A stretch of 64,000 nucleotides of DNA from Echinicola sp. 20G (GTDB lineage Bacteria; Bacteroidota; Bacteroidia; Cytophagales; Cyclobacteriaceae): positions 4,594,501 through 4,658,500 of the forward strand of contig NZ_AP024154.1 of assembly GCF_015533855.1 (NCBI RefSeq), given 5' to 3'. Below are positions 10,603-24,634 of the stretch, in pieces (the first letter of the stretch is position 1; each line of letters begins with the position of its first letter). Position numbers and translations under genes: made by a program. Under the pieces are notes generated by a model. The model was not told where the DNA came from, did no database searches, and saw nothing but the letters and a program-made list of their open reading frames with translations.

Positions 10603-11952
10603 TTATGAGCCACTTTCTAAAGCTGTCAAATAATTTTGGCTCTTCCGCACCACTCCTCTACTATTTATCCTTCTGAAATGATTCATGGCAATAACAAGAA
10701 ACAGCAAGCCAAAAATGGCCACACCATAACTAAAGTTTACCAATAGATGATGCCAGTTTAAATCTTGCATGAAAAAAGATTTATACATCAACAAAGAGAC
10801 GCTCCCTAGATAACCAATTGAATCACAGATATAGATAAAGAAACCAGCATTGGCCCTGAATTTATACAAAGCCAACATCCTATCGAAAAAAACTGTCTGA
10901 ATGGGTGTATAAGCCATGAATAGGCCAATCCCTAAAAAGACCATCCAGTAAAAAGGAGATAATACGCCAGCTTCATAGAGATAAGTGGAAAGACCCAGAC
11001 CGAAAAGTCCTATTGCCACCAAAGCTGAGGTAGCCCAAAAACCAATTTTATTATTTTTAATTAATGACAATAGACCAATCAATACCAATACCGTTACTCC
11101 TGATATCAATTCTGTAATTGATAAGACACTTTTTTCCCAATCAGGATCGATTTCATTCCAGATTTCCACAGAAAAATTATCCCTAAAGTCTCTCATGGTC
11201 AAGAGCAGTGCATAAATAAGTACCATCCCTATCATTCCAAAACTGAAAAACCGGAACGTCTTGACCTTCCTACTCCTATCCATGGGAATCCGTTCTGTCC
11301 GCAATGTAACATCCTCTTCTGTAGGAGCCGGAATCACGGATAGCATCCAGACAAATACAATAAACAAAGGCAAAAACAAAGCTCCAATGGTAAAAGGCAT
11401 CCAAAATTCCGGTATCCAGGGAAACCATTCCAACACTTGTAAGTAAATGGTTTTCAAGAGTCCTGAGGCAATAATCACACTGATGCTCAAGCCAAACACC
11501 AAGACTTCAGTAAACTTCCTTCCTTCCAAGAAACTAAAAACGATTCCCCACACCATTCCCAGGGGCAGGCCATTAAAAAACAGAAACACAAAATTATATG
11601 GATAAGGCACCAAGCCAAAACCTAAAAGCGTCAGTTCGGCAAACAGAATCAATCCGATGATCAATCTAATTCTTTGACTGGGCTTCAATTCAGAAATTAC
11701 TTTGATCCCAGTAAATTTTGAAATCATATACCCTAACACTTGCGCTATGATCAAAATCGACTTGTAATCCATTCCCCATAAGTACATCCCTTCATATAGT
11801 CCCGTTATAAAAGGCTTCCTAAAAGCATACATGCTAAAGTAAGCTCCAAAGGAAGCCACTATGCACCATGCTATAAATAGAAACCTATTTTTGGTCAGTA
11901 GGGTGTTTTGGACATGGTTTCGCATTTGCTTAAAGTTTAATTTGGTACTCAT
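10603..11952 (-). CDS. DUF5690 family membrane protein, copy 1
   Basis: A 449-residue multi-spanning inner-membrane protein, about 12 hydrophobic segments, laid out like a major-facilitator transporter. FGAYFSMYAFRKPFITGLYEG near 35-55 is a characteristic DUF5690 signature and resembles the first helix of organophosphate:phosphate antiporters. FFNGLPLGMVWGIVFSFLEGRK and LLLTMRDFRDNFSVEIWNEI are further conserved blocks. It is divergent from the phosphodiesterase gene and has a paralogue at 14793-16088. The palindromic site 12075-12091 lies 122 bp upstream. The family has no proven substrate that I know of; uptake of a small solute produced by the neighbouring hydrolases is the natural inference. 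Confidence 0.85.
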   Translation of the reverse strand: MSTKLNFKQMRNHVQNTLLTKNRFLFIAWCIVASFGAYFSMYAFRKPFITGLYEGMYLWGMDYKSILIIAQVLGYMISKFTGIKVISELKPSQRIRLIIGLILFAELTLLGFGLVPYPYNFVFLFFNGLPLGMVWGIVFSFLEGRKFTEVLVFGLSISVIIASGLLKTIYLQVLEWFPWIPEFWMPFTIGALFLPLFIVFVWMLSVIPAPTEEDVTLRTERIPMDRSRKVKTFRFFSFGMIGMVLIYALLLTMRDFRDNFSVEIWNEIDPDWEKSVLSITELISGVTVLVLIGLLSLIKNNKIGFWATSALVAIGLFGLGLSTYLYEAGVLSPFYWMVFLGIGLFMAYTPIQTVFFDRMLALYKFRANAGFFIYICDSIGYLGSVSLLMYKSFFMQDLNWHHLLVNFSYGVAIFGLLFLVIAMNHFRRINSRGVVRKSQNYLTALESGS

Positions 11953-12074: not shown

Positions 12075-12091
12075 TTTTCTTAAAAAGAAAT
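12075..12091. promoter_or_regulatory. palindromic operator candidate, site 1
   Basis: TTTTCTTAAAAAGAAAT: TTTTC, 7-bp spacer, GAAA(T). One of six copies of TTTTC-N7-GAAAA. It lies in the divergent region between DUF5690 copy 1 and the phosphodiesterase, 122 bp before the DUF5690 start. The last base is the only deviation. Inferred binding site of the XRE-cupin regulator at 16325. Confidence 0.5.
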
Positions 12092-12247
12092 TTAATGAAA
12101 CTATTTAATATAAACAGAACCTCTTATAGATTGACTTAAACACATAAAAACAACTTATTTTCAAGTTATTAAATATAATATAACTTTCATTTAACAAACG
12201 ATAGTTTTTCTTATTTAGAAATTTTAATACCTTTACAATCGTGATAT

Positions 12248-12264
12248 TTTTCTTTTTAAGAAAA
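12248..12264. promoter_or_regulatory. palindromic operator candidate, site 2
   Basis: TTTTCTTTTTAAGAAAA, the same TTTTC-N7-GAAAA palindrome, ending 37 bp before the phosphodiesterase ATG at 12302. A weak -7-like box (TACCTTTA) lies just upstream, so a bound protein would block initiation or early elongation. Confidence 0.55.
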
Positions 12265-12301
12265 ATTAGTTGTTATTTTATAATTGTTACATAAACCATC
12301 C

Positions 12302-13222
12302 ATGAATTATAAAGCCCAAAGTTTTCTTTTGATATGTTTCGCACTAGTTCTATCTATTAGTTGTAAACAAAATGTTCCTGTCGCCAAACGCGTGGTAATG
12401 ATTGGACTTGACGGATTTAGTTTGGAAGGCTACCAAACCGCAAAGCACCCAAATATAGATGCACTGTTTGAAGATGGAGTTATCTCCACATCTACAAGAA
12501 CAGTAATGCCCTCTGTTACCATACCCAACTGGACCAGCCATCTCACAGGAGGTGGGCCAGAGCAGCACGGTGTATTTGGCAATGGATGGGAAAAGGATGA
12601 GCACCCTTTGGATCCTCAGGAAATGGATGCAGAAGGCTACTACCCTTCCATTTTCAAAATAGTGAAAGATAATATCCCCACTATCAAAACGGGATTTTAT
12701 TGGAACTGGAAAAGCTTGATCAAACCATTTAATGAAAAGTATCTTGATGAGGTAAAGTTTGAGGAGAATGATGAATATACCCAAAATTATCAGTCAGCTC
12801 TGGATTTTCTGATTGAGCACAAAGATGCTCCAACATTGGTTTTTTTATACTCTGTTCATGTAGATCATGCTGGACATAGTCATCAATGGATGTCGCCGGA
12901 ATACATCACAGCGATAGAAGAGGTGGATGTAAAGATTGGAGAATTTATTGAAAAGCTTAAAGCTAAAGATCTGTATGATGACACGCACTTTCTGCTCTTC
13001 ACTGATCATGGAGGAATAGGAAATGGGCACGGCGGGACTAGTGAACAAGAAATGATTGTACCCTGGATGATTACTGGTCCTGGAATTAAAAAGGACGGAC
13101 AATTGAAATCCCCCAATTCAAATGCCAATACGGCCGCGGTTGTCGCCAGCTTATTTGGCATCAATCAAACCCCAGCATCATGGATTGGAAAGGTTCCTTC
13201 AGGAATATTCATGGAGAAATAA
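12302..13222 (+). CDS. type I phosphodiesterase / alkaline-phosphatase-superfamily lipoprotein
   Basis: A 306-residue exported enzyme. I start it at the ATG at 12302 because the upstream open frame begins with TTG. A lipoprotein signal ends at Cys21 (LSISC). Metal ligands of the nucleotide pyrophosphatase/phosphodiesterase family are visible: Asp37 in MIGLDGF, the nucleophile Thr73 in MPSVTIPNWTSHLTG, HVDHAGHSH, FTDHGG and the final HGG. The MPS-T-PN-S-TG-P-HG-GN arrangement also resembles phosphonoacetate hydrolase, a member of the same superfamily. It would hydrolyse a phosphodiester or phosphonate outside the cytoplasm. The metallophosphoesterase follows after 13 bp in the same operon. Shorter than eukaryotic NPPs but usual for bacterial forms. 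Confidence 0.85.
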   Translation: MNYKAQSFLLICFALVLSISCKQNVPVAKRVVMIGLDGFSLEGYQTAKHPNIDALFEDGVISTSTRTVMPSVTIPNWTSHLTGGGPEQHGVFGNGWEKDEHPLDPQEMDAEGYYPSIFKIVKDNIPTIKTGFYWNWKSLIKPFNEKYLDEVKFEENDEYTQNYQSALDFLIEHKDAPTLVFLYSVHVDHAGHSHQWMSPEYITAIEEVDVKIGEFIEKLKAKDLYDDTHFLLFTDHGGIGNGHGGTSEQEMIVPWMITGPGIKKDGQLKSPNSNANTAAVVASLFGINQTPASWIGKVPSGIFMEK

Positions 13223-13235
13223 GACAATAAAGAAG

Positions 13236-14210
13236 ATGGACAGAAAAGAATTTATAAAAATAGGAGCCTTGGGCACACTGGCAATGTCTTTCAGCCCTTT
13301 GGCTTTCTCAGCTGAGAGAAAAGAAAAGAAGATTCGCTTTGGGATCATTACTGATCTTCACTATGACATCATGCATGATGGACAAGAAAGAATCTCAGCC
13401 TTTATCAATAAAATGAATGATGACCAACCAGATTTCATCATTCAATTGGGAGACTTTTGTGTCCCTAAACCAGAGAACCAATCATTAATGGATACTTGGA
13501 ACAAATTCCAAGGAGAGAAGCACCATGTAATCGGCAACCACGATACTGATGGAGGCTTCAACAGAGATCAAGTAGTTGAATTCTGGGATGCAAAAGCGAA
13601 GTATTACTCCTTTGACAAAAACGGGTTCCATTTCGTTGTATTAGACGGCAATGAACATAACGAAAGCCCAAATCGCCCAAAAGGCTATGCCCGTTACATT
13701 TCACCAGATCAGCTAGAGTGGCTGGAAAAAGATCTTAGCCAAACCTCTTTACCCACCATTGTTTTTTGCCATCAAGGACTGGACAATGAAATGGCCGGGA
13801 TAGAAAATGGCATGCCTGTGAGGTACACTTTGGAAAAAGCCAATAAAGAAGCTGGATTCCAAAAAGTCATCCTCGTTCTTTCAGGCCACCATCATCAAGA
13901 TTATTATAACCACATCAATGATATCCATTATGTGCAAATCAATAGCGCAAGCTATTACTGGTTGGGCGACAAGTATAAGACAATAAGGTATTCCAAAGAG
14001 GTAGATGAAACCAATCCTTGGATAAAATACACCGCGCCCTATAAAGACCCGCTATGGGCCATGGTAGAAATTTCACAGAAAGGAAAAATTTTTGTAGAAG
14101 GTAGGAAAACAAGTTGGGTAGGCCCAAGTCCTGAAAAGATGGAGATCCCATCCAATCAGGGGATCTACCCAATTGTTTCCGAAATTTCCAATAGGGATTT
14201 AAAAATTTAG
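13236..14210 (+). CDS. exported metallophosphoesterase
   Basis: Calcineurin-type phosphoesterase of 324 residues from the ATG at 13236. The longer open frame upstream overlaps the previous gene and reads as its shadow, whereas MDRKEF is preceded by a purine-rich AGAAG. Residues 1-25 look like an export signal, possibly Tat-like but with RK rather than RR. The di-metal motifs are complete: D-x-H at 40-42 (ITDLHYD), GD at 72-73 (LGDFC), GNHD at 100-103, and SGHHHQDY late in the chain. It would remove phosphate from a small phosphoester in the periplasm, perhaps the product of the preceding phosphodiesterase. An intrinsic terminator follows directly. Confidence 0.88.
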   Translation: MDRKEFIKIGALGTLAMSFSPLAFSAERKEKKIRFGIITDLHYDIMHDGQERISAFINKMNDDQPDFIIQLGDFCVPKPENQSLMDTWNKFQGEKHHVIGNHDTDGGFNRDQVVEFWDAKAKYYSFDKNGFHFVVLDGNEHNESPNRPKGYARYISPDQLEWLEKDLSQTSLPTIVFCHQGLDNEMAGIENGMPVRYTLEKANKEAGFQKVILVLSGHHHQDYYNHINDIHYVQINSASYYWLGDKYKTIRYSKEVDETNPWIKYTAPYKDPLWAMVEISQKGKIFVEGRKTSWVGPSPEKMEIPSNQGIYPIVSEISNRDLKI

Positions 14211-14229
14211 ATAGTTATCTGCATAGTTT

Positions 14230-14266
14230 GAAAAGCCGCAGCCTTTGGCTGTTGCTTTTCTTTTCG
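14230..14266 (+). terminator. intrinsic terminator after the phosphatase operon
   Basis: A long hairpin: GAAAAGC (14230-14236) pairs with GCTTTTC (14254-14260), and an inner GCAGCC/GGCTGT stem (with one G-T pair) closes on a TTT loop; one mismatch separates the two parts. TTTT follows on the plus strand. It ends the phosphodiesterase-metallophosphoesterase operon. Confidence 0.75.
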
Positions 14267-14318
14267 TTCCACGCGTCTTTATGAGTAGAAATAAGTACTA
14301 CTCCAAAACTGAACGATC

Positions 14319-14474
14319 ATGAATTCTACCCCAATCTTAATCACCTTTCTTGCCCTATTTATTTTATTTGTTTTCTTAAGTATATATGCCGCATTCAAAA
14401 ATCTAGGCTATCTAGCCTTTCTATCGGGCATAATCATCACCCATATCTACAACTTTATTATAAAAAAAATATAA
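14319..14474 (+). CDS. small hydrophobic membrane protein (51 residues)
   Basis: An ATG-started frame of 51 codons encoding two hydrophobic stretches (about residues 5-24 and 30-47) separated by AAFKNLG and ending in KKI. This is the layout of a small two-helix membrane protein with a basic tail. It sits alone between two terminator hairpins, the second starting at its stop codon, which favours a real transcript unit. I recognise no family. A chance hydrophobic frame in AT-rich DNA is the alternative. Confidence 0.4.
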   Translation: MNSTPILITFLALFILFVFLSIYAAFKNLGYLAFLSGIIITHIYNFIIKKI

Positions 14475-14521
14475 AATACCAGATAACTGGTCCTACAAGA
14501 GTCCCAACCATCTGGTATTTT
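14474..14521. terminator. terminator-like hairpin
   Basis: AAATACCAGAT (14474-14484) pairs perfectly with ATCTGGTATTT (14510-14520), an 11-bp stem with a 25-nt loop. A-runs on the left and T-runs on the right suit both directions. It separates the small membrane protein from the minus-strand remnant at 14548. Confidence 0.6.
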
Positions 14522-14547
14522 CAGCTATCTTAATTGATTTTAAACAT

Positions 14548-14790
14548 TCATTCAGGTTTAAAGAAGTAAATATTTCCAGCAAAATCGCAGATATAGAATC
14601 CTTCAGGAGAAACAGCTGGACTTGTCATCACCGGTGTTCCTAAGCTATTTTTCCAAAGCAGCTTTCCACTATCGGCATCTATTACATACACTTTGCCATC
14701 CATCGCTCCAAAAATCAATTGATCGTTTACCAAAACTGGGCTGCTTTCTAAACTCTGTTCTTGATTTTGAAAATAAGAAGGAGTATAAAA
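14548..14790 (-). pseudogene. 3' remnant of a PQQ-type beta-propeller gene
   Basis: The minus-strand frame ending with TGA at 14550-14548 encodes a clear tail of a PQQ/BamB-like propeller: SSPVLVNDQLIFGAMDGKVY, VIDADSGKLLWKNSLGTPV, TSPAVSPEGFYICDFAGNIY and FFKPE, that is, about one and a half blades with the DADSGKLLWK signature. No ATG start exists. The open frame runs upstream only to a TAA at 14838-14836, and its 5' side merges into the 3' end of the DUF5690 gene in another frame. The likely history is that the rest of the gene was deleted when the DUF5690 copy came to lie beside it. Residual similarity is strong, so the loss is probably recent. Confidence 0.7.
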
Positions 14791-14792
14791 AA

Positions 14793-16088
14793 TTAAACTT
14801 CCACTGTTCCTTTGTATAACTTTTTCAACTTTAGTTTAACCACTTGGCCATTCATCATCAAAATGGAAAGTCCTACCATGAAGATGACAAGCCCTCCTCC
14901 TATCAAATTCAATCGTGTGAAGAAATTGATCCAAGAGTAATGGAAATCTGCAGTTTCCTTAAAAATCATAATTCCCACACTGGCCATATACCCAAATGCA
15001 TCTGCTATATAAAACAGGTAGCCCACTGTACCTTTGTATCTCAATACTGCCAGAAACCGTTCAAAAAGTAAACAGTGAAATAAGATATAGGGCAAGTAAA
15101 CACTGAAACCAGAACTAATCATCCAAAATACCGGTCCGACTAGGTCCTTGCTAAATAAAAATGTGGATACGATCATCAATATTCCGCTCAGCAGGGTCAA
15201 GAATAGCCCCCAGTTAAAGGCCTTTTGATTGCTCAATATCAAAATTCCCAATGCAGATATCACCAAAACAACAACTGCAATTGGTACTTCTGTCAATGTG
15301 ATCAGTTCGGGCTGCCCAGAAAGGCCTAATTCAGCCCAGAACTCTACAATAAAATTGTCCCTAAAGTCCCTTACAACTGTCAAGACAACATAAATAAGTA
15401 CAAGCCCCACAAAAGCAAATCCATGTTTTTTCAAGAAGTCTTTCCGATCAGCCTTTTTCATAGGAACTCTTTCGGTCCGAAGTTCCTTATCATCCTCTGA
15501 TGGGGCTTTGCTCTTACTCAGTACAAAAGCGGCCAAAACGAATAGAGGAAAATAAATCAATCCCGTCCAAAAAGGCATGGTCATTTCACTCACCTCAAAA
15601 GCTTGCATCAGCCAAAGACCAGTCGTTTTGATCAAACCGGTTGAAAAAATAAATGTAGCGCTCAATCCCGCTACCAATAATTCTGAATTTTTCCTTCCTT
15701 CCAGGTAGACCAGAACCAATCCAAATATCATCCCTAATGGCAGGCCATTCAAAAACATGGCCACTGGCTTCAAGCCTACTGGCACATAGGCAAAAGCAAG
15801 CAACATCAACAAGCCAAACCCTACCAAACCCACAAGAGCTCCAAAACGCTTATAAGCCGGTAGTTCGGAAACCACCTTGATACCAATAAACTTGGACAAC
15901 ATATAACCTAACACTTGGCTGATAATCAGAAGAGTCTTGAAATGGAAGTCATTTATCACCTCCAACCCCTCATATTGCCCTGCCAAAAAAGACTTTCTTA
16001 CTGCATACATTCCCGTGTAGGCCATAAACGCAGTAGCTATCAATATAATATCAGTCTTGGTTATGGATACTTTATTCAGTTTGACCAT
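14793..16088 (-). CDS. DUF5690 family membrane protein, copy 2
   Basis: A 431-residue multi-pass membrane protein and paralogue of 10603-11952. Shared blocks are MYAVRKSFLAGQYEG, SQVLGYMLSKFIGIKVVSEL, FLNGLPLGMIFGLVLVYLEGRK, ELRTERVPMKK and VRDFRDNFIVEFW. It is divergent from the XRE-cupin regulator, and two identical palindromes lie between them. A candidate promoter with TTTG at 16287-16290 and TATTATTG at 16261-16268 (minus strand) brackets one of these palindromes. Its 3' end abuts the propeller remnant. The two copies probably carry related but not identical solutes; function is unproven. Confidence 0.85.
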   Translation of the reverse strand: MVKLNKVSITKTDIILIATAFMAYTGMYAVRKSFLAGQYEGLEVINDFHFKTLLIISQVLGYMLSKFIGIKVVSELPAYKRFGALVGLVGFGLLMLLAFAYVPVGLKPVAMFLNGLPLGMIFGLVLVYLEGRKNSELLVAGLSATFIFSTGLIKTTGLWLMQAFEVSEMTMPFWTGLIYFPLFVLAAFVLSKSKAPSEDDKELRTERVPMKKADRKDFLKKHGFAFVGLVLIYVVLTVVRDFRDNFIVEFWAELGLSGQPELITLTEVPIAVVVLVISALGILILSNQKAFNWGLFLTLLSGILMIVSTFLFSKDLVGPVFWMISSGFSVYLPYILFHCLLFERFLAVLRYKGTVGYLFYIADAFGYMASVGIMIFKETADFHYSWINFFTRLNLIGGGLVIFMVGLSILMMNGQVVKLKLKKLYKGTVEV

Positions 16089-16223
16089 AAGGATTATTTT
16101 CTTTTCAAGTAAAAACCGATCTGGTTTTGAAGAAACATATTTTCTTCAAATGTAAGTCTAAATGGCTAGTCCCTGCTAAAATCTGTATTATGAAAGCGTT
16201 AATATTTCATTAACGGAAATTTA

Positions 16224-16240
16224 TTTTCATATTAAGAAAA
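16224..16240. promoter_or_regulatory. palindromic operator candidate, site 3
   Basis: TTTTCATATTAAGAAAA. A 19-bp stretch starting TA is identical to the one at site 4, exactly 45 bp away. It lies between DUF5690 copy 2 and the XRE-cupin gene, 135 bp from the DUF5690 start. Confidence 0.6.
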
Positions 16241-16260
16241 TTATTTCGATCTTTCGGTCT

Positions 16261-16290
16261 CAATAATATTTTCATATTAAGAAAAACAAA
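16261..16290 (-). promoter_or_regulatory. candidate promoter for DUF5690 copy 2
   Basis: On the minus strand TTTG (plus 16287-16290) is followed after 18 nt by TATTATTG (plus 16261-16268), one base off the Bacteroidota consensus TTTG-N19-TAnnTTTG. The operator copy at 16269-16285 fills the spacer, a classical repressor position. The leader to the ATG at 16088 would be about 165 nt. Confidence 0.45.
16269..16285. promoter_or_regulatory. palindromic operator candidate, site 4
   Basis: TTTTCATATTAAGAAAA, identical to site 3. It ends 39 bp before the XRE-cupin ATG at 16325, which suggests autoregulation. It also lies between the boxes of the candidate minus-strand promoter. Confidence 0.6.
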
Positions 16291-16324
16291 CGTACTTTCA
16301 CATAGTTAAAAGCACATAAATACT

Positions 16325-16909
16325 ATGGAAAATTCTGAATACTTAACCACTTGGATAGGATCTAAACTTAAAGATATCCGTAAATCCCACAATTTAAAAC
16401 TGGGCGAGCTGGCTGATAAAACCGGAATCAGCATAGCCATGCTAAGTAAAATAGAAAACGGCAGGGTCTTTCCTACTCTTCCTTCCTTGATTCAGGTATT
16501 GAACACTTTGGATGTGGACCTTAATGAGTTTTTTGCTGACCTAAAAGGTGATAAAGAATTTCCAGGGTATTTGTTGAAAAAGCGAAAAGACTATAAATCC
16601 ATTAAAAAGGAAGAGGAATCCATTGGGTTTGACTACGAATTGATCCTTAACCACAAAATAGAACGCTCTTCGATGGAAATATCTCTTTTAACCATCAAAA
16701 GTGGCTCCCAAAGAGACCAAGTTTCGACTGATGGTTTTGAATACATCTATGTAATTAAGGGAAATCTTCAATACGAATTGGGCGAAAACACTTTCGAACT
16801 GGAAGAAGGAGACTCACTTTTCTTTAATGGCAATATTCCCCATCTACCTGTCAATAACAAAAAATCAGATGCCATTCTTTTGGTGATCTACTTTATAGAA
16901 CTTAGATAA
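16325..16909 (+). CDS. XRE-family regulator with cupin sensor domain
   Basis: A 194-residue cytoplasmic transcription factor. Residues about 11-70 are an HTH_3/XRE domain (IGSKLKDIRKSHNLKLGELA, then GISIAMLSKIENGRVFPTLPSLIQVLNTLDVDL). Residues about 115-190 are a cupin barrel (EYIYVIKGNLQYELGENTF, ELEEGDSLFFNGNIPHLPVN) that would sense a small ligand. This architecture (PuuR-like) usually represses catabolic genes until the substrate binds. It starts 39 bp after an exact palindrome and is followed after 9 bp by the dehydrogenase, so the two form an operon. I infer that it binds TTTTC-N7-GAAAA, because two identical copies lie at its own promoter and four more lie at neighbouring divergent promoters. 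The ligand is unknown. Confidence 0.92.
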   Translation: MENSEYLTTWIGSKLKDIRKSHNLKLGELADKTGISIAMLSKIENGRVFPTLPSLIQVLNTLDVDLNEFFADLKGDKEFPGYLLKKRKDYKSIKKEEESIGFDYELILNHKIERSSMEISLLTIKSGSQRDQVSTDGFEYIYVIKGNLQYELGENTFELEEGDSLFFNGNIPHLPVNNKKSDAILLVIYFIELR

Positions 16910-16918
16910 AACCATATC

Positions 16919-17992
16919 ATGAAAAAAGAAGCTGTAGCGAAGGTCTTTATAGAAGCGAAAACTCCATTTTCCAACACAACTATCGCCCTACCTACTTTAG
17001 CAGAAGGAGAAATATTGGTCAGCACCAGCTATGCCACCATTTGCGCCAGTGATCTGCACACCTATTACGGTAGAAGACATTCTTGCAGCCACAGTATCTT
17101 AGGACATGAAATCGTTGGAATCATTGAAAATATTGCTGATGGAGGTGTAAAAGACTACTTTGGAGCACCCCTCAAAATTGGCGATAAAATCACCTGGTCA
17201 GTTTATGCCCATGACCCAGGTTCTAAAAATGCTCAAAAAGGTTATCCTCAAAAGTCTGAAGGCCTTTACAAATATGGCCATGAGCAAATGAATGAGGACT
17301 ATCAGCTTAATGGAGGTTTTTCCACCCACTGCCATTTACGGAAAGGAACCACTATTTTTAGACTCCCCGACACCTTGAACAATGCAGAAGCTGCCCCTTT
17401 AAACTGCACCCATGCCACCGTTGCTGGGGCAATGAGGCTTGCAGGGGATTTGACCGGCAAAAATGTTTTGATCAATGGTGTGGGAATGCTTGGGCTTTCT
17501 GCATGCGCCATGGCCAAAGAATTTGGTGCTGAGAACGTCTGGGTCCAGGACATTAGTCAAGAAAAAATAAAAAAAGCCAATTTGTTCGGAGCTGATCATG
17601 CCTTTATTTACAAAAGTGAAAACGTCAAGCCATTTACAAAAAGTAAAGGTGATATTGATGTGATCATTGAAACATCTGGTATTCCTGAGGCAGTCGAAAG
17701 CTGCATCCAACTACTGGGCATAGGAGGCACCCTTGTTTTGGTTGGTTCCGTATTTCCTCAGAGAGACCTGAACATCAACGCTGAATACCTGGTGAGAAAC
17801 CTGTTAACGATTAAAGGCCTACACAACTATATTCCTGAAGACCTGGCCACTGCTATCGACTTCTTGGAAAAGGCCCACAAGAAATATCCTTTTGAAAGTC
17901 TAGTGGGCATTGATTACCCTCTGGCAGAATTGGACAAGGCTTTTGAAACTGGCAATAAGGGAATTTACTACAGGGTGGGTATTAAGCCTTGA
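16919..17992 (+). CDS. zinc-type alcohol dehydrogenase (phosphonate-associated subfamily-like)
   Basis: Medium-chain dehydrogenase of 357 residues. The catalytic-zinc ligands look intact: Cys42 in ATICASDLH, His63-Glu64 in LGHEIVG, and Cys163 in APLNCTHATV. The NAD(P) loop is GVGMLGL near 187-193. The order WS, GYPQKSEGLYKYGHE and LNGGFSTHCHL matches, to my eye, the family annotated as phosphonate-catabolism-associated alcohol dehydrogenase (TIGR03366). The lobe that normally holds four cysteines for a structural zinc (about 94-113) contains none here. It lies 9 bp after the XRE-cupin regulator, so their expression is coupled. It may oxidise an alcohol derived from a phosphonate or a sugar; the sequence alone does not decide. 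Confidence 0.82.
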   Translation: MKKEAVAKVFIEAKTPFSNTTIALPTLAEGEILVSTSYATICASDLHTYYGRRHSCSHSILGHEIVGIIENIADGGVKDYFGAPLKIGDKITWSVYAHDPGSKNAQKGYPQKSEGLYKYGHEQMNEDYQLNGGFSTHCHLRKGTTIFRLPDTLNNAEAAPLNCTHATVAGAMRLAGDLTGKNVLINGVGMLGLSACAMAKEFGAENVWVQDISQEKIKKANLFGADHAFIYKSENVKPFTKSKGDIDVIIETSGIPEAVESCIQLLGIGGTLVLVGSVFPQRDLNINAEYLVRNLLTIKGLHNYIPEDLATAIDFLEKAHKKYPFESLVGIDYPLAELDKAFETGNKGIYYRVGIKP

Positions 17993-18013
17993 TTCTTTTT
18001 CTCCACCAAAGAG

Positions 18014-19990
18014 CTAATCCAATCCATTGACAAAAAAGTACCGGATCCGAACGGCATTTCCTGAGCTGTTCGGATTTTTATCTTCTATCACTTTCAGCTC
18101 CAGTTTATGTTCTTCTGATTCCAAATCAATGGCCAGTAGATAATACCATGGCAAATGCAGGTGAGCACTCCACTGGGTAAACAAGTCTTGCGTTTTCCAT
18201 TCACCATTATCGATTCGATAAGCAATCTTACCAGCATCCTGTCCTGCAGCTACAGCTATCCCCACCGCATTTCCATTAAACTTGAATTTGAGCTTACTTT
18301 CTGGAGATTCACTGACCAGCATAGGAACATCCACATAGTTAGCTCTTGTACCGGTCTGATCAGTAGGTTTCCAAGCTTCTACGATTTGCCAGCCTTTTCC
18401 TATTTTGGCCTTAGAAATATCAACCAAAGACCCACGATCAAAAGCTGCTACATTTAGCATAGACAATGATTGATTGGCGGTAATTTTATCATCTTGATCC
18501 AAGTGTCCTCCATAAGCTGTCTTTAGCATATCAATCATTGAATGCGCATACACCCCCTGCCCAAATGGTGATGGGTGAAGGTTCTTAAAATCTTCTTCCC
18601 AAGTAAATTCCTTATTGGCAATCCTCTTTGTTACCTCTTCCGCCAAGTTCAAAGAAGGAAGACCATAATACTCGGCCACCCGCTCATGATTCTTGATCAC
18701 CTCAGGAACCTCTCCCCTATTATAGGAACCTATTTTATCAGGATCTACAAAATGAAAAAGAACCATATCCGCTGCAGGATTCTCTTTTCTCAGATGACGG
18801 ACAATCCCTTCCATAGCCAATTGCTGCTCTTGATCGGTCCTTCCATTGGTCGCATCATTTACCGCAGCTTCTTCAAACAACAGATCAATGGGGCCTGTGG
18901 AAAGCACATCCCGCTCTAGCCTAAAGGCTCCAGGAACGGATCCCATAGAAGGAATTCCCGCTGCAATAAATTCAAACTCGGTGTCCGGAAACCTTTCTTG
19001 CAAAAAATTCATCACACTATCTCTCCAGCCGGGATTATAAGTAATCGATCCTCCTAAAAACGCCACCCTTCCCTTTTTATCTCTTTCAAACTTGATCTGG
19101 GAATTTTTAAGCCCTCCTCTAATTTTGTAAAATGTTTTGGAAGATAGCTTTGCCTCCTTGACTGAGTGGTACTTGATAAAATCAGCCACCAAGCGAGGGC
19201 TTTCAATGTCAAAATGATGGCCATGTAACTTCTGTTCTCCTTGGGTACAAGGCACCACTGTGGCTGATCCTCCCAACCGAAGATAATTTTCTACTAGGAT
19301 AAAAGTGTTCTCTTCAGGAGGTACCACTTGGTCTTCCAGCCCGATCATATGGAGTATTGGTACTTTATTCTTGGCCAACTCTTTCAAGCCATCAATTGGG
19401 TTGCCTTCATAACTATTAGCTTCTTCATCACTTGCAAATCCATAAGCCTCTTTTAATTTTTCCCAATCAGTTTCGCTACCCAACCCTTTGCCCTGTCCAC
19501 CGGGCCAACTTTTAAAATCACAGACAGGTGCCTCGGCATAAATACAAGCCACTTTATCCGGATGCCTTTTTGCCCAACTATAGACAAATAATCCACCTCG
19601 GCTAATACCTGACAATGATGGTTTTTTGTTCAATCCATACTTTTTCGTCATCAGATCATAAACCTGATCCCAGACCTCCATAGCCTTGGGACTTCCAAAT
19701 AAGTTGTCGGTATTGACGTATACCAAGTGAAATCCCTCAGCAACCAAAATACTATCCTGTTCTGTATGCCAATCAGGAAACCTGGCTCGCCACAACCAAG
19801 GCTTTCCCTCCAACTCAGATTTTGGGGCTACAATCCTTATGTCTCTTTCGCCTATTTTTAAGTTATACCTTTGAAAGCCTTTCCACTCAATGGTATCTAT
19901 GGGAGCAATATCTTGGGCAGAAATGGATAAAGAAAAAAAGAATAAACAAAGAGCATATGCTAAAGTAAATGTTAAGGATCTGCTATTCAT
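18014..19990 (-). CDS. alpha/beta-hydrolase-SGNH hydrolase fusion, secreted
   Basis: I start at the ATG at 19990 (658 residues, signal peptide 1-26 ending SAQ); the frame extends to a GTG inside the terminator stem and that extension is not credible. Residues about 30-280 are an alpha/beta hydrolase with nucleophile Ser130 in GISRGG and a late HGHHFD. Residues about 305-490 are an SGNH esterase: block I is GGSITYNPGW (Ser315; GGS rather than GDS), AAVND carries Asn378, and HPSPFGQ carries His472. The Asp usually three residues before that His is Lys469. The last 130 or so residues form a beta-sandwich. The pairing suggests a two-step deacylase on an acylated glycan. It is convergent with the dehydrogenase gene and lies downstream of the GH29 gene, separated by a terminator hairpin. 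Confidence 0.82.
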   Translation of the reverse strand: MNSRSLTFTLAYALCLFFFSLSISAQDIAPIDTIEWKGFQRYNLKIGERDIRIVAPKSELEGKPWLWRARFPDWHTEQDSILVAEGFHLVYVNTDNLFGSPKAMEVWDQVYDLMTKKYGLNKKPSLSGISRGGLFVYSWAKRHPDKVACIYAEAPVCDFKSWPGGQGKGLGSETDWEKLKEAYGFASDEEANSYEGNPIDGLKELAKNKVPILHMIGLEDQVVPPEENTFILVENYLRLGGSATVVPCTQGEQKLHGHHFDIESPRLVADFIKYHSVKEAKLSSKTFYKIRGGLKNSQIKFERDKKGRVAFLGGSITYNPGWRDSVMNFLQERFPDTEFEFIAAGIPSMGSVPGAFRLERDVLSTGPIDLLFEEAAVNDATNGRTDQEQQLAMEGIVRHLRKENPAADMVLFHFVDPDKIGSYNRGEVPEVIKNHERVAEYYGLPSLNLAEEVTKRIANKEFTWEEDFKNLHPSPFGQGVYAHSMIDMLKTAYGGHLDQDDKITANQSLSMLNVAAFDRGSLVDISKAKIGKGWQIVEAWKPTDQTGTRANYVDVPMLVSESPESKLKFKFNGNAVGIAVAAGQDAGKIAYRIDNGEWKTQDLFTQWSAHLHLPWYYLLAIDLESEEHKLELKVIEDKNPNSSGNAVRIRYFFVNGLD

Positions 19991-20020
19991 GGCGGTTATT
20001 TTGTTTAGAAAAATAATAAA

Positions 20021-20043
20021 GCCCCGTGAAAGTCTCACAGGGC
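20021..20043 (-). terminator. intrinsic terminator after GH29 gene
   Basis: GCCC-C-GTGA (20021-20029) pairs with TCAC-A-GGGC (20035-20043), with one internal mismatch and a 5-nt loop. Read on the minus strand it is followed by TTTATTATTTTT. It would end or attenuate the GH29 transcript before the fusion-hydrolase gene, whose start lies 31 bp further on. Confidence 0.75.
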
Positions 20044-20051
20044 CAAGTAAT

Positions 20052-22295
20052 TTATTTCACCAAAATCCCAATCTCTGCAATAGCTGCATGTCCTTGCCCA
20101 CCTGCTATTCTGGTTACTTCTAACTTTATATATCTTCCACTTACATGTGATTTGAAATAATGCCTCCTTTCAGATGGATCATTGATCAGATTTCCAAAGA
20201 CAAAAGCCTCCGAAAATTCCCATAATTTCCCATCTTTAGAAACATAGAGCTTCCCTTCCTCAATCATCCCCTCTTTATCATTCAATGGTGGTGCATAGGT
20301 AAAGCCTGTAATATCAATAGTTTCACCTAGATCCAATACTAAACTTTGGCCAGAACTTCTATCCACATCTGTTTTCCAGTAGCTCTCAACATTCTCATCA
20401 AAGGCATTATTAGCTTCAAAACCTTTTGCAGCACTACTTGAGTTGACTACCTTCCAATTTTTCTTAACCTGACCAAATAGCTCCTCTGCTACAGCTCCCT
20501 CATCCTCTTTTCCATAAGCAACGGCCTTAATTGTACCATGATCAAATTCAAAGGGACCTCTATAGATTGCTGATTCCCTGATAGGGTCCGAACCATCCAA
20601 GGTATAATGGATGGACAAATCCCTATTCAGGTCCCCGGCAATATCCTGCTCATAGGTTTTCCATCCAAAATCCCCTTTTTGGGCATTGATACTTACTTTC
20701 CCTTCCAAATCCCTTACAATATCCAATTGAGGAGGCCTGGTTTCATAATAATAAGCCGCCACTTCGGAGATAGACACAGGCATCAACCTGGCCTTAGCTA
20801 TCTTAATTCTAATCCTATCCGTTGTCACCGTAGCAAACCGCTGAATATTTTTGTAACCAATATTTTTACCTTTTGAAATTACTTTCCACTTTCCGTCAAG
20901 CCAAGCTTCCACTTCAAATTCAGCCACCCTTTCTCCGTGGGTTTGTATAGCTTCTTGAATCATCAATCGATTAAGTCGAATGGGTTTATCCAATTTGAAT
21001 GATAGTTCATCACCATGCTCAGATAGTAAAACATAAGTATCCTGATCTTTATCCAATACTTTTTCGGGACCATGAGCACCAACCAAAAGACTTTTTCCAT
21101 AAGTGCTCTTAATCCTACTACCCACTTCTTTTAACACCTCCACATCACGCTTACCAAACTTTCCTTCTCTATTAGGGGGAATATTCAGTAAGAAAATGGA
21201 ATTGCCACCAACTGATCGCTCATAGATATCAAAGACATCGTCTGCACTCCTTACTCCCTGCTCATCATCATTCCTGTAAAACCAACCTTCCCTAATGGAG
21301 GTATTGGTTTCTGCCGGTTGGTAATGTAGGTAATTGGCCGTGTGGAGCTTTTCCAAACTGGCCACATCCTCTCCAGTAATGTCAGCAAATCGATTCATTT
21401 GATTAGGATCTTCATCATAAGGAATCACATTCCATTCAATGGCTCTAGTTTTACCTGATTCATTACCGCACCAGCGGATATCCTGACGACCAAAAATCAC
21501 TGCTTGAGGAGCCAGCTTGCGAATCAACTCTTTCCAAGCAGCATAATCATAAGTTTGGCCTCCTTTACGTTTGGGGTGTGCTCCATCAAACCACACTTCA
21601 TCAATTCGCCCATATTCAGTAAGCAATTCAAAAAGCTGATTGAGGAAATACTCATTATAGTCATCCACTACAAAATCGAAGCTTGTCTTATTTTCAAAAG
21701 GTCTTCCTTCAACTATTCTAGGAATTGTTCTTTTTGTTTTCTTACTCAGGTTACCGTATAACCCTTCAGGACTCTCAATTTGATAGAGATCAGCTGGTGA
21801 GAGGTAAACCCCTAACTTCAACCCATATTTTTTGCAAGAAGCTGACAAGTCCTCAAGAATATCACCCTTTCCATCTCTAAAACCTGTGGACATAATACCA
21901 TGCTTGGTATACCTTGACTGCCAAAGCACAAAACCATCATGGTGTTTCACGGTGAGAATTACCTTGCTCATTCCAGCAGCCTTCATGGCTTGGCACCATT
22001 GATCCGTATCCAATTCCTTCAGGTCAAAAACTGCTGGATCCTCAAATCCTGAACCCCATTCTTTTGCAGTAAACGTGTTGGGACCAAAGTGGACAAACGC
22101 AATAAACTCATCTCTTAAAGCCTGGTACTGATTTTCAGTAGGTATTACGTGTGCAGCTTTGATCCTAATGCTATCAAATGAATCGTCATTATCGATGGCA
22201 ATAGTTGAAGAAAAGGGAATATCCTGGGCATTTGATTTTTGTGAATACGGAAGGCAAAACAATGCCAAGCACGCTATGACTAATTTATATCTCAT
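20052..22295 (-). CDS. multidomain GH29 alpha-L-fucosidase
   Basis: A 747-residue secreted fucosidase with a signal peptide (1-24, ending NAQ). The GH29 barrel spans about 45-390: FVHFGPNTF near 67-75, TVKHHDGFVLWQSRYTKHG near 115-133, and VWFDGAHPKR, where Asp237 is the expected nucleophile; FLLNIPPNREG closes the domain. After it come an F5/8 (discoidin)-like region, a chitobiase C-terminal-type domain (LSIHYTLDGSDPIRESAIYRG region) and a final F5/8 type C domain (FEANNAFDENVESYWKTD to the end). These modules are common in fucosidases acting on complex polymers. A palindromic operator candidate lies 38 bp before the ATG. The gene is divergent from the membrane protein-sulfatase operon, which shares the motif. 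Confidence 0.93.
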   Translation of the reverse strand: MRYKLVIACLALFCLPYSQKSNAQDIPFSSTIAIDNDDSFDSIRIKAAHVIPTENQYQALRDEFIAFVHFGPNTFTAKEWGSGFEDPAVFDLKELDTDQWCQAMKAAGMSKVILTVKHHDGFVLWQSRYTKHGIMSTGFRDGKGDILEDLSASCKKYGLKLGVYLSPADLYQIESPEGLYGNLSKKTKRTIPRIVEGRPFENKTSFDFVVDDYNEYFLNQLFELLTEYGRIDEVWFDGAHPKRKGGQTYDYAAWKELIRKLAPQAVIFGRQDIRWCGNESGKTRAIEWNVIPYDEDPNQMNRFADITGEDVASLEKLHTANYLHYQPAETNTSIREGWFYRNDDEQGVRSADDVFDIYERSVGGNSIFLLNIPPNREGKFGKRDVEVLKEVGSRIKSTYGKSLLVGAHGPEKVLDKDQDTYVLLSEHGDELSFKLDKPIRLNRLMIQEAIQTHGERVAEFEVEAWLDGKWKVISKGKNIGYKNIQRFATVTTDRIRIKIAKARLMPVSISEVAAYYYETRPPQLDIVRDLEGKVSINAQKGDFGWKTYEQDIAGDLNRDLSIHYTLDGSDPIRESAIYRGPFEFDHGTIKAVAYGKEDEGAVAEELFGQVKKNWKVVNSSSAAKGFEANNAFDENVESYWKTDVDRSSGQSLVLDLGETIDITGFTYAPPLNDKEGMIEEGKLYVSKDGKLWEFSEAFVFGNLINDPSERRHYFKSHVSGRYIKLEVTRIAGGQGHAAIAEIGILVK

Positions 22296-22333
22296 CTCTT
22301 ATTTGAAAAACGTACATATAATAAGTAAAACTA

Positions 22334-22350
22334 TTTTCCTATAAAGAAAA
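22334..22350. promoter_or_regulatory. palindromic operator candidate, site 5
   Basis: TTTTCCTATAAAGAAAA, 38 bp before the GH29 start codon. On the minus strand a TAGTTTTA box (plus 22351-22358), close to TAnnTTTG, directly precedes it, so binding would block that promoter. Confidence 0.55.
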
Positions 22351-22446
22351 TAAAACTAATCACTTTAAGCAAGAAATAAAATCAAAACGAAACCAAAAGA
22401 AAGTTTATAAATTCAGTATTATATCTATATATTAATTTCAATACCT

Positions 22447-22454
22447 TATATTTG
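22447..22454 (+). promoter_or_regulatory. candidate -7 box for membrane protein-sulfatase operon
   Basis: TATATTTG matches the Bacteroidota -7 consensus TAnnTTTG exactly. A start near 22460 would place operator site 6 just inside the transcript and give a leader of about 40 nt to the ATG at 22502. No clear -33 TTTG is visible. Confidence 0.45.
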
Positions 22455-22473
22455 ACTTTAACAATCATAAAAT

Positions 22474-22490
22474 TTTTCTCAAAAAGAAAA
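22474..22490. promoter_or_regulatory. palindromic operator candidate, site 6
   Basis: TTTTCTCAAAAAGAAAA, 11 bp before the ATG at 22502 and just downstream of the TATATTTG box, a position fit for repression. It could also overlap the ribosome-binding region. Confidence 0.5.
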
Positions 22491-22501: not shown

Positions 22502-23053
22502 ATGTCAGCTCACCTTCTCATTTCCTCTATTGTAATGCTGGTCATGCTGTTCTCCCAATGGAGAAGGTCCGTGCGAAAAATCAGTACATTTAATAAAAGT
22601 AGTGTATGGCTAATATTTCTGCTTATCCCCTTAAGTTTTCCGGGCATTGCAGTCATTTCCCAATATCTATTTGAAGGGTTTGGCGAGAATATACTTTGGT
22701 ATATTTTATTAAGTCCCGTGCTGATTGCTGGAAATTTCTATCTCTTTTGGAAAGTCAAAAATACTCATTCCCGGCCTATGCTTATCTGCTATGCCTTGAT
22801 TCTGATCATTATGATTTATTGGTTTATTATTGGAATAAGCCAAAGTGCTAGAGAACATGGCCCAACACCTACTTTACCAGAAAACAAAACACTCCTTATT
22901 TATTGTATATCGATCCACATTGCTTTGCTCAGTCTCTTAGGAATTCAATATAACAGAACAAAGGCTGATCATAAATTGACACCCAAGATGGCCATGTATT
23001 TAGTTTCTATCTTATACATTGTCTCTTTGTTATTTACATTTCGTCTCTTATAA
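22502..23053 (+). CDS. six-helix membrane protein of unknown function
   Basis: A 183-residue protein with about six hydrophobic segments (roughly 3-20, 37-58, 66-82, 96-115, 133-150, 162-180) and short polar loops. It has no cleavable signal and no recognised motif. It is the first gene of an operon with two sulfatases (12 bp to the first) and begins just after a -7 box and a palindromic operator candidate. I do not recognise the family. Genomic position suggests a role linked to the sulfatase/fucosidase regulon, for example export, sensing or transport, but the sequence shows none of these directly. Confidence 0.75.
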   Translation: MSAHLLISSIVMLVMLFSQWRRSVRKISTFNKSSVWLIFLLIPLSFPGIAVISQYLFEGFGENILWYILLSPVLIAGNFYLFWKVKNTHSRPMLICYALILIIMIYWFIIGISQSAREHGPTPTLPENKTLLIYCISIHIALLSLLGIQYNRTKADHKLTPKMAMYLVSILYIVSLLFTFRLL

Positions 23054-23065: not shown

Positions 23066-24634
23066 ATGACACTCAACCAAAAACTTAATCTTTCAATACT
23101 GCTATTCCTTCCTGTTATGACAGGTCTTTTACTTTTCACAAGCTGTAAACCTGCAGAAGATAAAGCCGAAGCAGTCGCTAAAAAGCCCAATATCATTTAT
23201 ATCCTAGCTGACGACCTAGGCTATGCCGAATTGGGCAGCTTTGGTCAGAGCCTCATCGAAACTCCCAATTTGGATGCGTTGGCACAAAGTGGCATGCGTT
23301 TCACCAATCATTATGCGGGTGCTCCTGTATGTGCTCCTTCTCGCTGTGTGCTATTGACAGGTAAACATACCGGAAATGCCTATGTCCGGTCCAATGATGA
23401 ATGGACTTCCAGAGGCGATGTTTGGAATTATGAAATGGCAGTGAATAACCCAGAACTAGAAGGTCAGCGTCCCTTACCAGCTTCAGAGGTTACCATAGGT
23501 AATATTTTGCAAAAAGCAGGATACAAAACAGGAATAGTTGGAAAATGGGGTTTGGGCGCTCCCTTATCCGATGGCATTCCCAATAAGCGGGGCTTTGATT
23601 TCTTCTATGGCTACAATTGTCAACGCCAAGCGCACAACCTTTATCCTAAGCATTTGTGGAAAAATGGTGAAAAAGTGTGGTTGGATAATGAATTGGTAGC
23701 TCCAAATACTAAAATTGACAAAGGTGCTGATCCCAAAGAGTTGAGCAGTTATGATAAGTTTTTCCAAAATGATTATGCGCCAGCCATGATGCAGAAAGAA
23801 GCTTTGAGCTTTATTGAGAGTAGTCAGGACCAGCCTTTCTTTTTGTATTATGCCACTCCCCTTACCCATGCTCCACTTCAGGTTCCTCAAAAATACATCG
23901 ACAAGTATGTAAAGAAATTTGGAGATGAAGAGCCCTATTTAGGTCAAGGTGGCTATTTCCCAAATCGCTACCCTAAAGCAGCCTATGCCGCTATGGTAAG
24001 TTACTTAGACGATCAAGTTGGAGAGTTAATTGCTAAATTGAAAGAGACCGGACAGTACGAAAACACTTTGATTATTTTCTCTTCAGACAATGGCCCTACC
24101 TATAATGATGGTACTAATTCCCCTTATTTTGATAGTGCCAAACCTTTTAAAAGCGAATATGGCTGGGGTAAAGGTTTTGTCCATGAAGGAGGAATCCGTG
24201 TGCCCATGATTGCTGTTTGGGAAAACAAAATCAAAGCAGGAACTAGCAGTGATTTGATTTCTGCTTTTTGGGATGTAATGCCGACCTTAGCCGAGGTAGC
24301 AGGAACATCCACTCCTGAGCATACTGATGGCATCAGCTTCCTTCCTGAATTATTGGGTAAAGGAGATCAACAAAAACATGATTTTCTTTATTGGGAATTC
24401 CCGGCATATGATGGACAACAAGCTGTCAGAATGGGCAAATGGAAAGGGATACGAAAAGATATCCTAAAAGACAATATGGAAATCGAATTGTATGACCTAA
24501 ATGCAGATCCACAGGAACAACATGATATCGCTGATAAAAACCCTGAAGTAGTAGCCAAGATCAAAGCTATTATGCAAGAAGAACATCATGTTGCCAAAAC
24601 AGAAAAATTTCAAATGCCTCAACTGGGGGACTAA
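23066..24634 (+). CDS. S1-family sulfatase lipoprotein
   Basis: A 522-residue formylglycine sulfatase. A lipoprotein signal ends at Cys27 (LLFTSC), so it is membrane-anchored. Landmarks are Asp49-Asp50 (ILADDLGYAELG), the modification motif CAPSR at 89-93, GIVGKWGLG, THAPLQVP and FSSDNGPTYN. The closing DLNADPQEQHDIADKNPEV is typical of arylsulfatase A-type S1 enzymes. Size is normal. It is followed by another sulfatase after 73 bp; both probably act on different sulfate positions of the same oligosaccharide. It shares a divergent regulatory region with the GH29 fucosidase. Confidence 0.93.
   Translation: MTLNQKLNLSILLFLPVMTGLLLFTSCKPAEDKAEAVAKKPNIIYILADDLGYAELGSFGQSLIETPNLDALAQSGMRFTNHYAGAPVCAPSRCVLLTGKHTGNAYVRSNDEWTSRGDVWNYEMAVNNPELEGQRPLPASEVTIGNILQKAGYKTGIVGKWGLGAPLSDGIPNKRGFDFFYGYNCQRQAHNLYPKHLWKNGEKVWLDNELVAPNTKIDKGADPKELSSYDKFFQNDYAPAMMQKEALSFIESSQDQPFFLYYATPLTHAPLQVPQKYIDKYVKKFGDEEPYLGQGGYFPNRYPKAAYAAMVSYLDDQVGELIAKLKETGQYENTLIIFSSDNGPTYNDGTNSPYFDSAKPFKSEYGWGKGFVHEGGIRVPMIAVWENKIKAGTSSDLISAFWDVMPTLAEVAGTSTPEHTDGISFLPELLGKGDQQKHDFLYWEFPAYDGQQAVRMGKWKGIRKDILKDNMEIELYDLNADPQEQHDIADKNPEVVAKIKAIMQEEHHVAKTEKFQMPQLGD

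Follow-up and report, generated by a model that had tools for sequence, protein, structure and literature searches.

Local repressors of the XRE-cupin family have been described in Pseudomonas, where, as far as the excerpts of the papers cited here tell, ErfA, PsdR and PauR combine a helix-turn-helix (HTH) domain with a cupin domain, have palindromic operators, serve neighbouring metabolic genes, are suspected of autoregulation and have small regulons (PMC7901475). In the hydrolytic catabolism of aminoethylphosphonate (AEP), the AEP oxidase PbfD (TIGR03364), which oxidises N-methyl-AEP and AEP to phosphonoacetaldehyde, adjoins a phosphonatase-type HAD protein, PhnX (PMC10590968), and may substitute for PhnW (PMC10590968; PMC10574752); the regulators named in a review are LysR, PhoBR, PhnF, CbrAB and NtrBC (PMC10574752). 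AepP, a proven AEP permease, is related to GlpT (PMC8316502), and in Maribacter an alkaline phosphatase, an FAD-dependent oxidoreductase and a phosphonatase-like hydrolase have been reported next to a SusC/D pair (PMC11345257). Here we analyse a stretch of 64,000 nucleotides (the window) from Echinicola sp. 20G, part of a single-contig 5.79-Mb Echinicola genome, in which the palindrome TTTTC-N7-GAAAA recurs around a gene for a type-1 XRE-cupin protein. The best explanation as a whole, and one that we consider quite likely, is that this protein is the palindrome-binding repressor of a regulon for phosphonate and glycan use.

The locus shares features with each of these systems. With the polysaccharide utilisation locus of the SusC/D type, as generally understood, it has in common GH29, GH2, sulfatases, SusC/D and sigma/FecR/SusC units, which in Echinicola species lie close to the motif or under it; unlike such a locus, it joins them to a pathway that would cleave the carbon-phosphorus (C-P) bond and to exported phosphodiesterases. 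As in ErfA, PsdR and PauR (PMC7901475), we find an HTH and a cupin domain in one protein, a palindromic candidate operator, neighbouring metabolic genes, suspected autoregulation and a small regulon; unlike them, the Echinicola system belongs to a Bacteroidota clade, has its own motif with tandem operators 20-21 bp apart, and takes in phosphonate and glycan genes including one remote target, and its repression is predicted. As in the PbfD and PhnX system (PMC10590968), PbfD adjoins a phosphonatase-type HAD protein, but here the latter is PhnX-like (TIGR03351), the dehydrogenase HpnZ is added, the host genome gives no PhnW match at E<=1e-60, and control is proposed to lie with an XRE-cupin protein and not with the regulators of the review (PMC10574752). 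Regulators of this kind are already known, as are the core enzyme families. What appears new, within the literature searched, is the way in which the genes are combined, the motif, the DUF5690 permease and the link to glycans; the titles and beginnings of abstracts listed, mostly outside subscription papers, gave no description of this regulon that we could find.

A first-pass annotation of the window had listed six copies of the palindrome in three divergent gaps, and the window scan places all six there: exact copies at 12248, 16224, 16269, 22334 and 22474, and a copy with one mismatch at 12075. Two further one-mismatch copies, at 12206 and 16097, lie in the same gaps and were absent from that list, and a two-mismatch copy, ATTTC-N7-GAAAT, was read by eye at 16204-16220, exactly 20 bp ahead of 16224. 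The features of the region are as follows.

10603..11952, minus strand: DUF5690 (PF18943) copy 1, predicted inner-membrane permease (Pfam 492.6 bits)
12075..12091: operator-like copy, one mismatch; one-mismatch counterparts at the same place in E. shivajiensis, E. salinicaeni and E. arenosa
12206..12222: operator-like copy, one mismatch; conserved island with TAATACCTTTA in 3/3 aligned Echinicola
12248..12264: predicted operator copy, exact (pattern match and conservation)
12302..13222, plus strand: lipoprotein-like NPP-type phosphodiesterase (PDE; PF01663 120 bits; nearest solved sequences NPP/ENPP)
13236..14210, plus strand: calcineurin-like phosphoesterase (MPE), exported-looking (PF00149 54 bits)
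14793..16088, minus strand: DUF5690 copy 2, divergent from the regulator (Pfam 425 bits; AlphaFold2 MFS fold)
16097..16113: operator-like copy, one mismatch; same sequence in E. arenosa
16204..16220: weak copy, by eye; block kept in aligned Echinicola rows
16224..16240: predicted operator copy, exact (pattern match and conservation)
16269..16285: predicted operator copy, exact; followed by GTACTTTCACATAG, kept in four Echinicola
16325..16909, plus strand: type-1 XRE-cupin regulator (HTH_3 46.2 bits, Cupin_2 46.0 bits; tree)
16919..17992, plus strand: HpnZ, TIGR03366 zinc alcohol dehydrogenase (341.4 bits, cut-off 328.1)
18014..20038, minus strand: GDSL/SGNH esterase with serine-hydrolase domain (PF13472 51.5 bits, PF00326 28.4 bits)
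20052..22295, minus strand: GH29 alpha-L-fucosidase-like (PF01120 128 bits)
22334..22350: predicted operator copy, exact; kept in E. arenosa
22474..22490: predicted operator copy, exact; not found in E. arenosa
22502..23053, plus strand: membrane protein, no Pfam match (open reading frame (ORF) and Pfam scan)
23066..24634, plus strand: sulfatase (PF00884 203.6 bits)
24708..26225, plus strand: second sulfatase-like gene (BLAST cluster with the first), putatively in the same transcript as the first

As the start of PDE we prefer, judging by eye, the ATG at 12302 over the TTG at 12284, with the N-terminus MNYKAQSFLLICFALVLSISCKQ, and the likely start of MPE, read from the ORF, is MDRKEF, 13 bp downstream of PDE.

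The palindrome is real and specific, and its signal lies in the exact copies and their position. The three divergent gaps (791 bp, 74-81% AT) hold five exact copies and eight with at most one mismatch, against means of 0.0185 (maximum 1, 2000 shuffles) and 0.36 (maximum 3, 500 shuffles) in dinucleotide shuffles of the same gaps, so that the motif is commoner than gap composition would lead one to expect. Within the first 40 kb, the remaining gaps of more than 40 bp between called ORFs (2615 bp in all) contain no exact and a single one-mismatch copy, and the consensus of the first-pass annotation, allowing up to two mismatches, matches the window eight times where 0.58 are expected, a count reached in none of 100 shuffles. 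Other details of that annotation hold as well: the copies at 12248, 16269 and 22334 lie 37, 39 and 38 bp from the starts at 12302, 16325 and 22295, respectively, the two copies at the regulator promoter are identical over 19 bp, and the box said to precede the 22474 copy is TATATTTG at 22447-22454, 19 bp ahead of it.

Comparison of the same gaps in relatives revealed that the motif is conserved at type-1 XRE-cupin loci. We fetched 79 loci, representing the best 80 of 323 relatives, and analysed 44 (L046-L089), of which 43 come from records named Bacteroidota and one from a metagenome-assembled genome named Thalassovita; the 35 most distant loci, named Actinomycetota or Pseudomonadota and 28-38% identical, were left out. 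The XRE-cupin protein of the window, which has an N-terminal HTH_3 and a C-terminal cupin domain, is 100% identical to that of E. arenosa. Upstream of the regulator, an exact copy is present at 17 of the 44 orthologue loci and a copy with at most one mismatch at 27, most often in close kin: exact and near copies occur in 12/15 and 14/15 close orthologues (shuffle means 0.11 and 1.12), in 2/6 and 5/6 of a middle group (0.02 and 0.42) and in 3/23 and 8/23 of a distant group (0.04 and 1.04), counts that are not independent because many loci are close kin. The spacer, for which we did not select, is itself constrained: across 40 exact sites symmetrically placed positions carry T in 88%, A or T in 98% and A in 88%, which refines the palindrome to about wTTTTC-N-T-N-W-N-A-N-GAAAAw. 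Of 24 pairs of neighbouring copies within 70 bp, 11 have a spacing of 20 or 21 bp; this corresponds to about two turns of the helix and suggests that dimers bind cooperatively from the same side of the DNA. The copies also follow the genes when these are rearranged. In L055, L058 and L059 hpnZ lies apart from the regulator and divergent from DUF5690, with copies in the DUF5690/HpnZ gap and, in L055 and L058, before the regulator too, and three Echinicola genomes (G010, G006 and G004) have exact copies ahead of a single row made up of the regulator, hpnZ and the beginning of a PbfD-like ORF.

The promoter box of Bacteroidota is TAnnTTTG. At the regulator promoter the 16269 copy stands directly before GTACTTTCACATAG, and at the PDE promoter the copies at 12206 and 12248 flank a TTTTAATACCTTTA block kept in three Echinicola. 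Such closeness to promoter-like elements would fit a repressor that occludes the promoter, the mode described for Pseudomonas XRE-cupin proteins (PMC7901475).

In a tree, type-1 (45 rows) and type-2 (16 rows) XRE-cupin proteins split with support 100/95, with a warning from the tool of long branches, and the recognition-helix segment AMLSKIENGR is present in 45/45 type-1 and 0/16 type-2 rows. None of the 13 type-2 loci (L023-L035) has an exact copy in the 400 bp upstream. The pairing of palindrome and XRE-cupin regulon that the first-pass annotation had put forward thus gains support from comparative genomics, in that type-1 loci keep the motif, at the regulator's own and at neighbouring promoters, and the palindrome is very probably the docking site of the XRE-cupin sensor protein. 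Separately, we observed type-2 genes next to phosphonate genes: in genome G027 a type-2 match ends at 23162 and a pbfD match begins at 23199, and in L125 (9827-10405, minus strand, and 10448-11374, minus strand) a type-2 XRE-cupin gene lies beside pbfD-phnX-like and adjoins a universal stress protein gene.

Which pathway answers to the regulator had not been recognised in the first-pass annotation. A first hint of phosphonates came from the gene that follows the regulator, which matches TIGR03366 (HpnZ), a model named 'putative phosphonate catabolism associated alcohol dehydrogenase', above its cut-off. Moreover, 1.38 Mb from the window the host carries a pbfD-phnX-like pair with an exact motif 156 bp upstream, the sole exact match of the first-pass consensus outside the window in this genome. 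Both products belong to their families by score (PbfD, TIGR03364, 420 bits, cut-off 285; PhnX-like HAD, TIGR03351, 249 bits, cut-off 218.9), and Lys49 of the PhnX-like protein aligns with Lys53 of solved phosphonoacetaldehyde hydrolases, a residue that presumably has a role in the enzyme; the lysine is kept in 17 of 18 sequences. Exact copies also lie upstream of pbfD in E. arenosa, E. shivajiensis and E. salinicaeni.

The neighbourhood of the regulator points the same way. In BLAST clusters across the window and the 44 loci, with families named from scanned representatives (19/19 scanned for HpnZ), we count HpnZ in 36, DUF5690 in 24, a GlpT/PgtP-type protein of the major facilitator superfamily (MFS) in 11 others, PhnX-like in 18, PDE in 17, MPE in 10 and PbfD in 8, so that the recurrent partners are HpnZ, the PhnX-like protein and a transporter slot filled by DUF5690 or the GlpT/PgtP-type MFS protein. 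For whole genomes, 35 of the 44 loci were submitted (all except L068, L070, L072, L075, L076, L081, L083, L084 and L088) and 33 genomes were covered (those of L058 and L061 excepted). PbfD occurs in 28 of these 33 regulator-bearing genomes (E<=1e-60, and still 28 at 1e-80) and PhnX-like in 28 (E<=1e-40, 23 of them over the cut-off; 27 at E<=1e-50), and PhnW is matched in 8/34 genomes. An even sample of 198 genomes of the phylum, which itself includes at least two regulator-bearing genomes (G000 and G218), has PbfD in 11 (E<=1e-80), PhnX-like in 10 (E<=1e-50), both in 9, and HpnZ in 3 at the strict threshold of E<=1e-80. Since HpnZ, the PhnX-like protein and the transporter recur beside the regulator and pbfD lies under the motif, we propose with good confidence that the pathway is phosphonate scavenging, the genes of which are probably under a local XRE-cupin repressor whose action is predicted.

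HpnZ may itself act in this pathway. Its residues C42, H63 and C163, which we take to be zinc ligands, are invariant in 19/19 sequences. A search for HpnZ on plasmids yielded two Streptomyces records, neither usefully annotated. In five loci (L055, L056, L058, L059 and L062) its gene lies beside PhnX-like with no PbfD in view; the genomes of L055, L056 and L059 carry PbfD elsewhere, and a Polaribacter assembly of uncertain completeness (L062/G267) combines HpnZ and PhnX-like and gives no match to PbfD or PhnW, which leaves HpnZ as the only candidate source of phosphonoacetaldehyde there. Our bolder, unproven proposal, based on gene context, is that HpnZ may be a 2-hydroxyethylphosphonate dehydrogenase; oxidation of 2-hydroxyethylphosphonate to phosphonoacetaldehyde has been considered for PbfF and judged less likely there, and PbfF turned out to be a racemase (PMC12366243). 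A zinc alcohol dehydrogenase encoded in the same row as PhnX-like in several loci could instead remove the acetaldehyde that the PhnX-like enzyme releases and have no part in making phosphonoacetaldehyde. We regard this as somewhat unlikely, given that 7 of the 9 phylum-sample genomes with both PbfD and PhnX-like have no HpnZ match (at E<=1e-80, a threshold that may miss distant members) and that the Polaribacter assembly pairs HpnZ with PhnX-like but shows no match to PbfD or PhnW.

DUF5690 is a candidate for the transporter of the pathway. The AlphaFold2 model of copy 2 (predicted local distance difference test, pLDDT, 87.9) has the MFS fold with 12 long helices, and its best Foldseek matches are organophosphate antiporters, with G6PT/SLC37A4 at ranks 1-5. 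The two copies of the window are 39% identical and represent two subfamilies, one found beside the regulator in many genera and the other beside PDE in Echinicola; copy 1 shares 77-78% identity with the copies next to PDE in E. shivajiensis and E. salinicaeni. AepP (PMC8316502) resembles the GlpT/PgtP-type MFS protein of Chitinophagaceae, of which one representative was scanned, and has an MFS fold like that predicted for DUF5690, but DUF5690 is a separate Pfam family with no detectable profile similarity to the GlpT/PgtP-type protein. We found no mention of DUF5690 or of TIGR03366 in the literature searched, which misses most subscription papers.

The glycan side of the regulon is less uniform. 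PDE and MPE, NPP-like and calcineurin-like respectively, look exported by eye. The GH29 of the window (20052..22295) is 53.5-55.5% identical over 724-747 columns to a GH29 in four Chitinophagaceae phosphonate loci, compared with about 25% to another GH29 of the window, and the host and these four Chitinophagaceae have 9 to 17 GH29 matches per genome. The GH29/sulfatase gap, which the first-pass annotation had included in the regulon, shows the weakest operator conservation of the three gaps, and its inclusion is less certain: the 22334 copy is kept in E. arenosa and the GH29 subfamily recurs in the Chitinophagaceae phosphonate loci, whereas the 22474 copy is not kept, and E. shivajiensis and E. 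salinicaeni show no copy at one mismatch or fewer in the gap that precedes their GDSL gene. Elsewhere in the genus, a SusC/SusD pair of E. arenosa is preceded by two copies, one exact and the other near, and both E. salinicaeni and E. shivajiensis have copies between a GH2 gene and a sigma/FecR/SusC-like unit; the SusC/D pair of the window has no upstream copy within one mismatch. The exported phosphoesterases, the recurring GH29 subfamily and the motif-linked SusC genes of sister species suggest phosphonate-bearing glycans, and the phosphonates scavenged possibly include those attached to polysaccharides. As separate observations, the gene that follows the SusC/D pair in the E. arenosa cluster (L205:6267-8750) encodes a calcineurin-like phosphoesterase of 828 aa with PQQ-type propeller repeats, and Pedobacter loci encode an alkaline-phosphatase-superfamily protein of about 360 aa with exact motif copies upstream (L074:5702-6781, scanned, PF01663 33.7 bits; L069:203-1279, assigned by BLAST cluster).

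Taken together, we propose that the type-1 XRE-cupin protein encoded at 16325-16909 would use the palindrome as its operator. In the ligand-free state its dimers, as a tandem pair 20-21 bp apart in many loci, would cover or adjoin promoters and block the regulator's own operon, the DUF5690 permeases, the exported phosphoesterases, the GH29/GDSL and sulfatase units and the remote pbfD-phnX-like pair, and a phosphonate metabolite bound in the cupin domain would open these genes. Exported phosphodiesterases and glycan hydrolases may then release phosphonates from esters, DUF5690 would import them, PbfD (from aminoethylphosphonate) and probably HpnZ (from 2-hydroxyethylphosphonate) would produce phosphonoacetaldehyde, and the PhnX-like enzyme would cleave the C-P bond. 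Operator conservation, gene association and fold class are what was computed here, and from them we infer binding, repression, the identity of the ligand, the transport substrate and the reactions of HpnZ and the PhnX-like enzyme. A more ambitious version, which we offer tentatively and hold to be rather less probable than its negation, is a C-P-lyase-free regulon that strips phosphonate esters off fucosylated and sulfated polysaccharides, with HpnZ as 2-hydroxyethylphosphonate dehydrogenase, DUF5690 as a new phosphonate permease family and a tandem-operator XRE-cupin protein as sensor.

Several observations weigh against this proposal. In Chitinophagaceae, a copy with no more than one mismatch lies within 400 bp upstream of the regulator at only 4 of 13 loci; in this family the recognition helix begins differently, and a copy follows the regulator gene, before the next gene, in 5/13 loci. 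A one-mismatch copy is present within 400 bp upstream at 3 of the 13 type-2 loci. Outside Echinicola, none of 18 pbfD loci distant from the regulator has an exact copy in the available 1.5 kb upstream, although a few have one-mismatch copies. The proportion of 28/33 may be too high for the whole family because the nine omitted loci mostly are without HpnZ, and four genomes (G272, G273, G276 and G283) have the regulator without matches to PbfD, PhnX-like or PhnW at the thresholds used, which leaves the C-P cleaving step there unexplained; three of them (G272, G276 and G283) have HpnZ, which may therefore act in other routes. The 22474 copy is missing from E. arenosa, the nearest relative, and hhalign of DUF5690 against the GlpT/PgtP-type MFS protein is not significant (probability 0.6%, E 0.094). 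Counted over the whole window by arms alone with one mismatch, the palindrome has 15 matches where 9.3 are expected, a number reached in 4 of 100 shuffles, and genome-wide the first-pass consensus at two mismatches or fewer is found at 59 places compared with 53 for a reversed control, so that the scan suggested in that annotation did not bring out an enrichment.

Some of these points would fit a regulon for the use of glycans or phosphodiesters to which phosphonates are incidental, with HpnZ oxidising a sugar-derived alcohol. Sulfatases, GH29 and GDSL genes neighbour the regulator in the window, SusC/D pairs occur in several loci, HpnZ takes its name from genome context alone (hypoth_equivalog), and the four genomes just mentioned show no match to PbfD, PhnX-like or PhnW. 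However, PhnX-like and PbfD stand in the regulator's row or under the same motif in several genera, and their frequency in regulator-bearing genomes far exceeds that in the phylum sample, which makes this alternative improbable.

We assign a slightly lower probability still to the idea that some other factor, such as a regulator of phosphate starvation or catabolite control, recognises the palindrome and has the XRE-cupin gene as only one of its targets. It would account for copies before sulfatases, GH29, SusC and a FecI/FecR unit besides the phosphonate genes, and for G003, which is without a type-1 regulator match and has 8 sites compared with 2 in the control. Across the four Echinicola without a type-1 match (G002, G003, G005 and G008), however, the counts are 6, 8, 3 and 2 against controls of 7, 2, 2 and 8, the sites are scattered, unlike the tight clusters round the regulator in G000, G001, G007 and G009, and type-2 loci have no exact copy. 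In the host, the first-pass consensus is exact at three places, two at the regulator and one before pbfD-phnX-like. The pattern TTTTCNTNNNANGAAAA has 16 sites there compared with 4 for the reversed pattern: 8 are one repeat sequence, 2 lie in long ORFs, 1 in an unrelated gap and 5 in this regulon, so that 5 of the 6 non-repeat sites outside long ORFs belong to the latter. This pattern was chosen after seeing the window and orthologue sites, so that for the window copies its enrichment is no independent evidence; it was the first-pass pattern itself that brought out the pbfD copy. That the copies are chance AT-rich repeats, in line with the only marginally high arms-only counts and the lack of genome-wide enrichment at two mismatches, has a negligible probability in view of the gap shuffles, the spacer constraint, the genome-wide specificity of the exact copies and the conservation of the motif in gaps of other bacterial families.

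The repeat just mentioned is interspersed, up to about 290 bp long, and carries TTTTCCTTAGATGAAAA. Its copies lie at G000:C1:1554050 and seven more places (L192, L193, L196, L198, L200-L202 and C1:5544168), in L192 outside the ORFs found; seven copies compared are 79-88% alike over 117-293 aligned bases, and the 17-mer TTTTCCTTAGATGAAAA is also listed in at least five of ten other Echinicola genomes searched.

In marine polysaccharide of high molecular weight, phosphonates account for about 20% of the phosphorus, in the form of methyl- and 2-hydroxyethylphosphonate esters, and the route described for obtaining phosphorus from 2-hydroxyethylphosphonate is C-P lyase, which releases ethylene (PMC5649143; PMC9381506). 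The regulon proposed here would join glycan hydrolases, exported phosphodiesterases, a permease family and C-P hydrolysis in Bacteroidota. For DUF5690, TIGR03366 and TIGR03351 it would supply functions that can be put to the test, and a reporter of phosphonate sensing could be built on its operator. If the more ambitious version is true, Bacteroidota would be able to draw on the hydroxyethylphosphonate esters of dissolved marine polysaccharide and release no ethylene in doing so.

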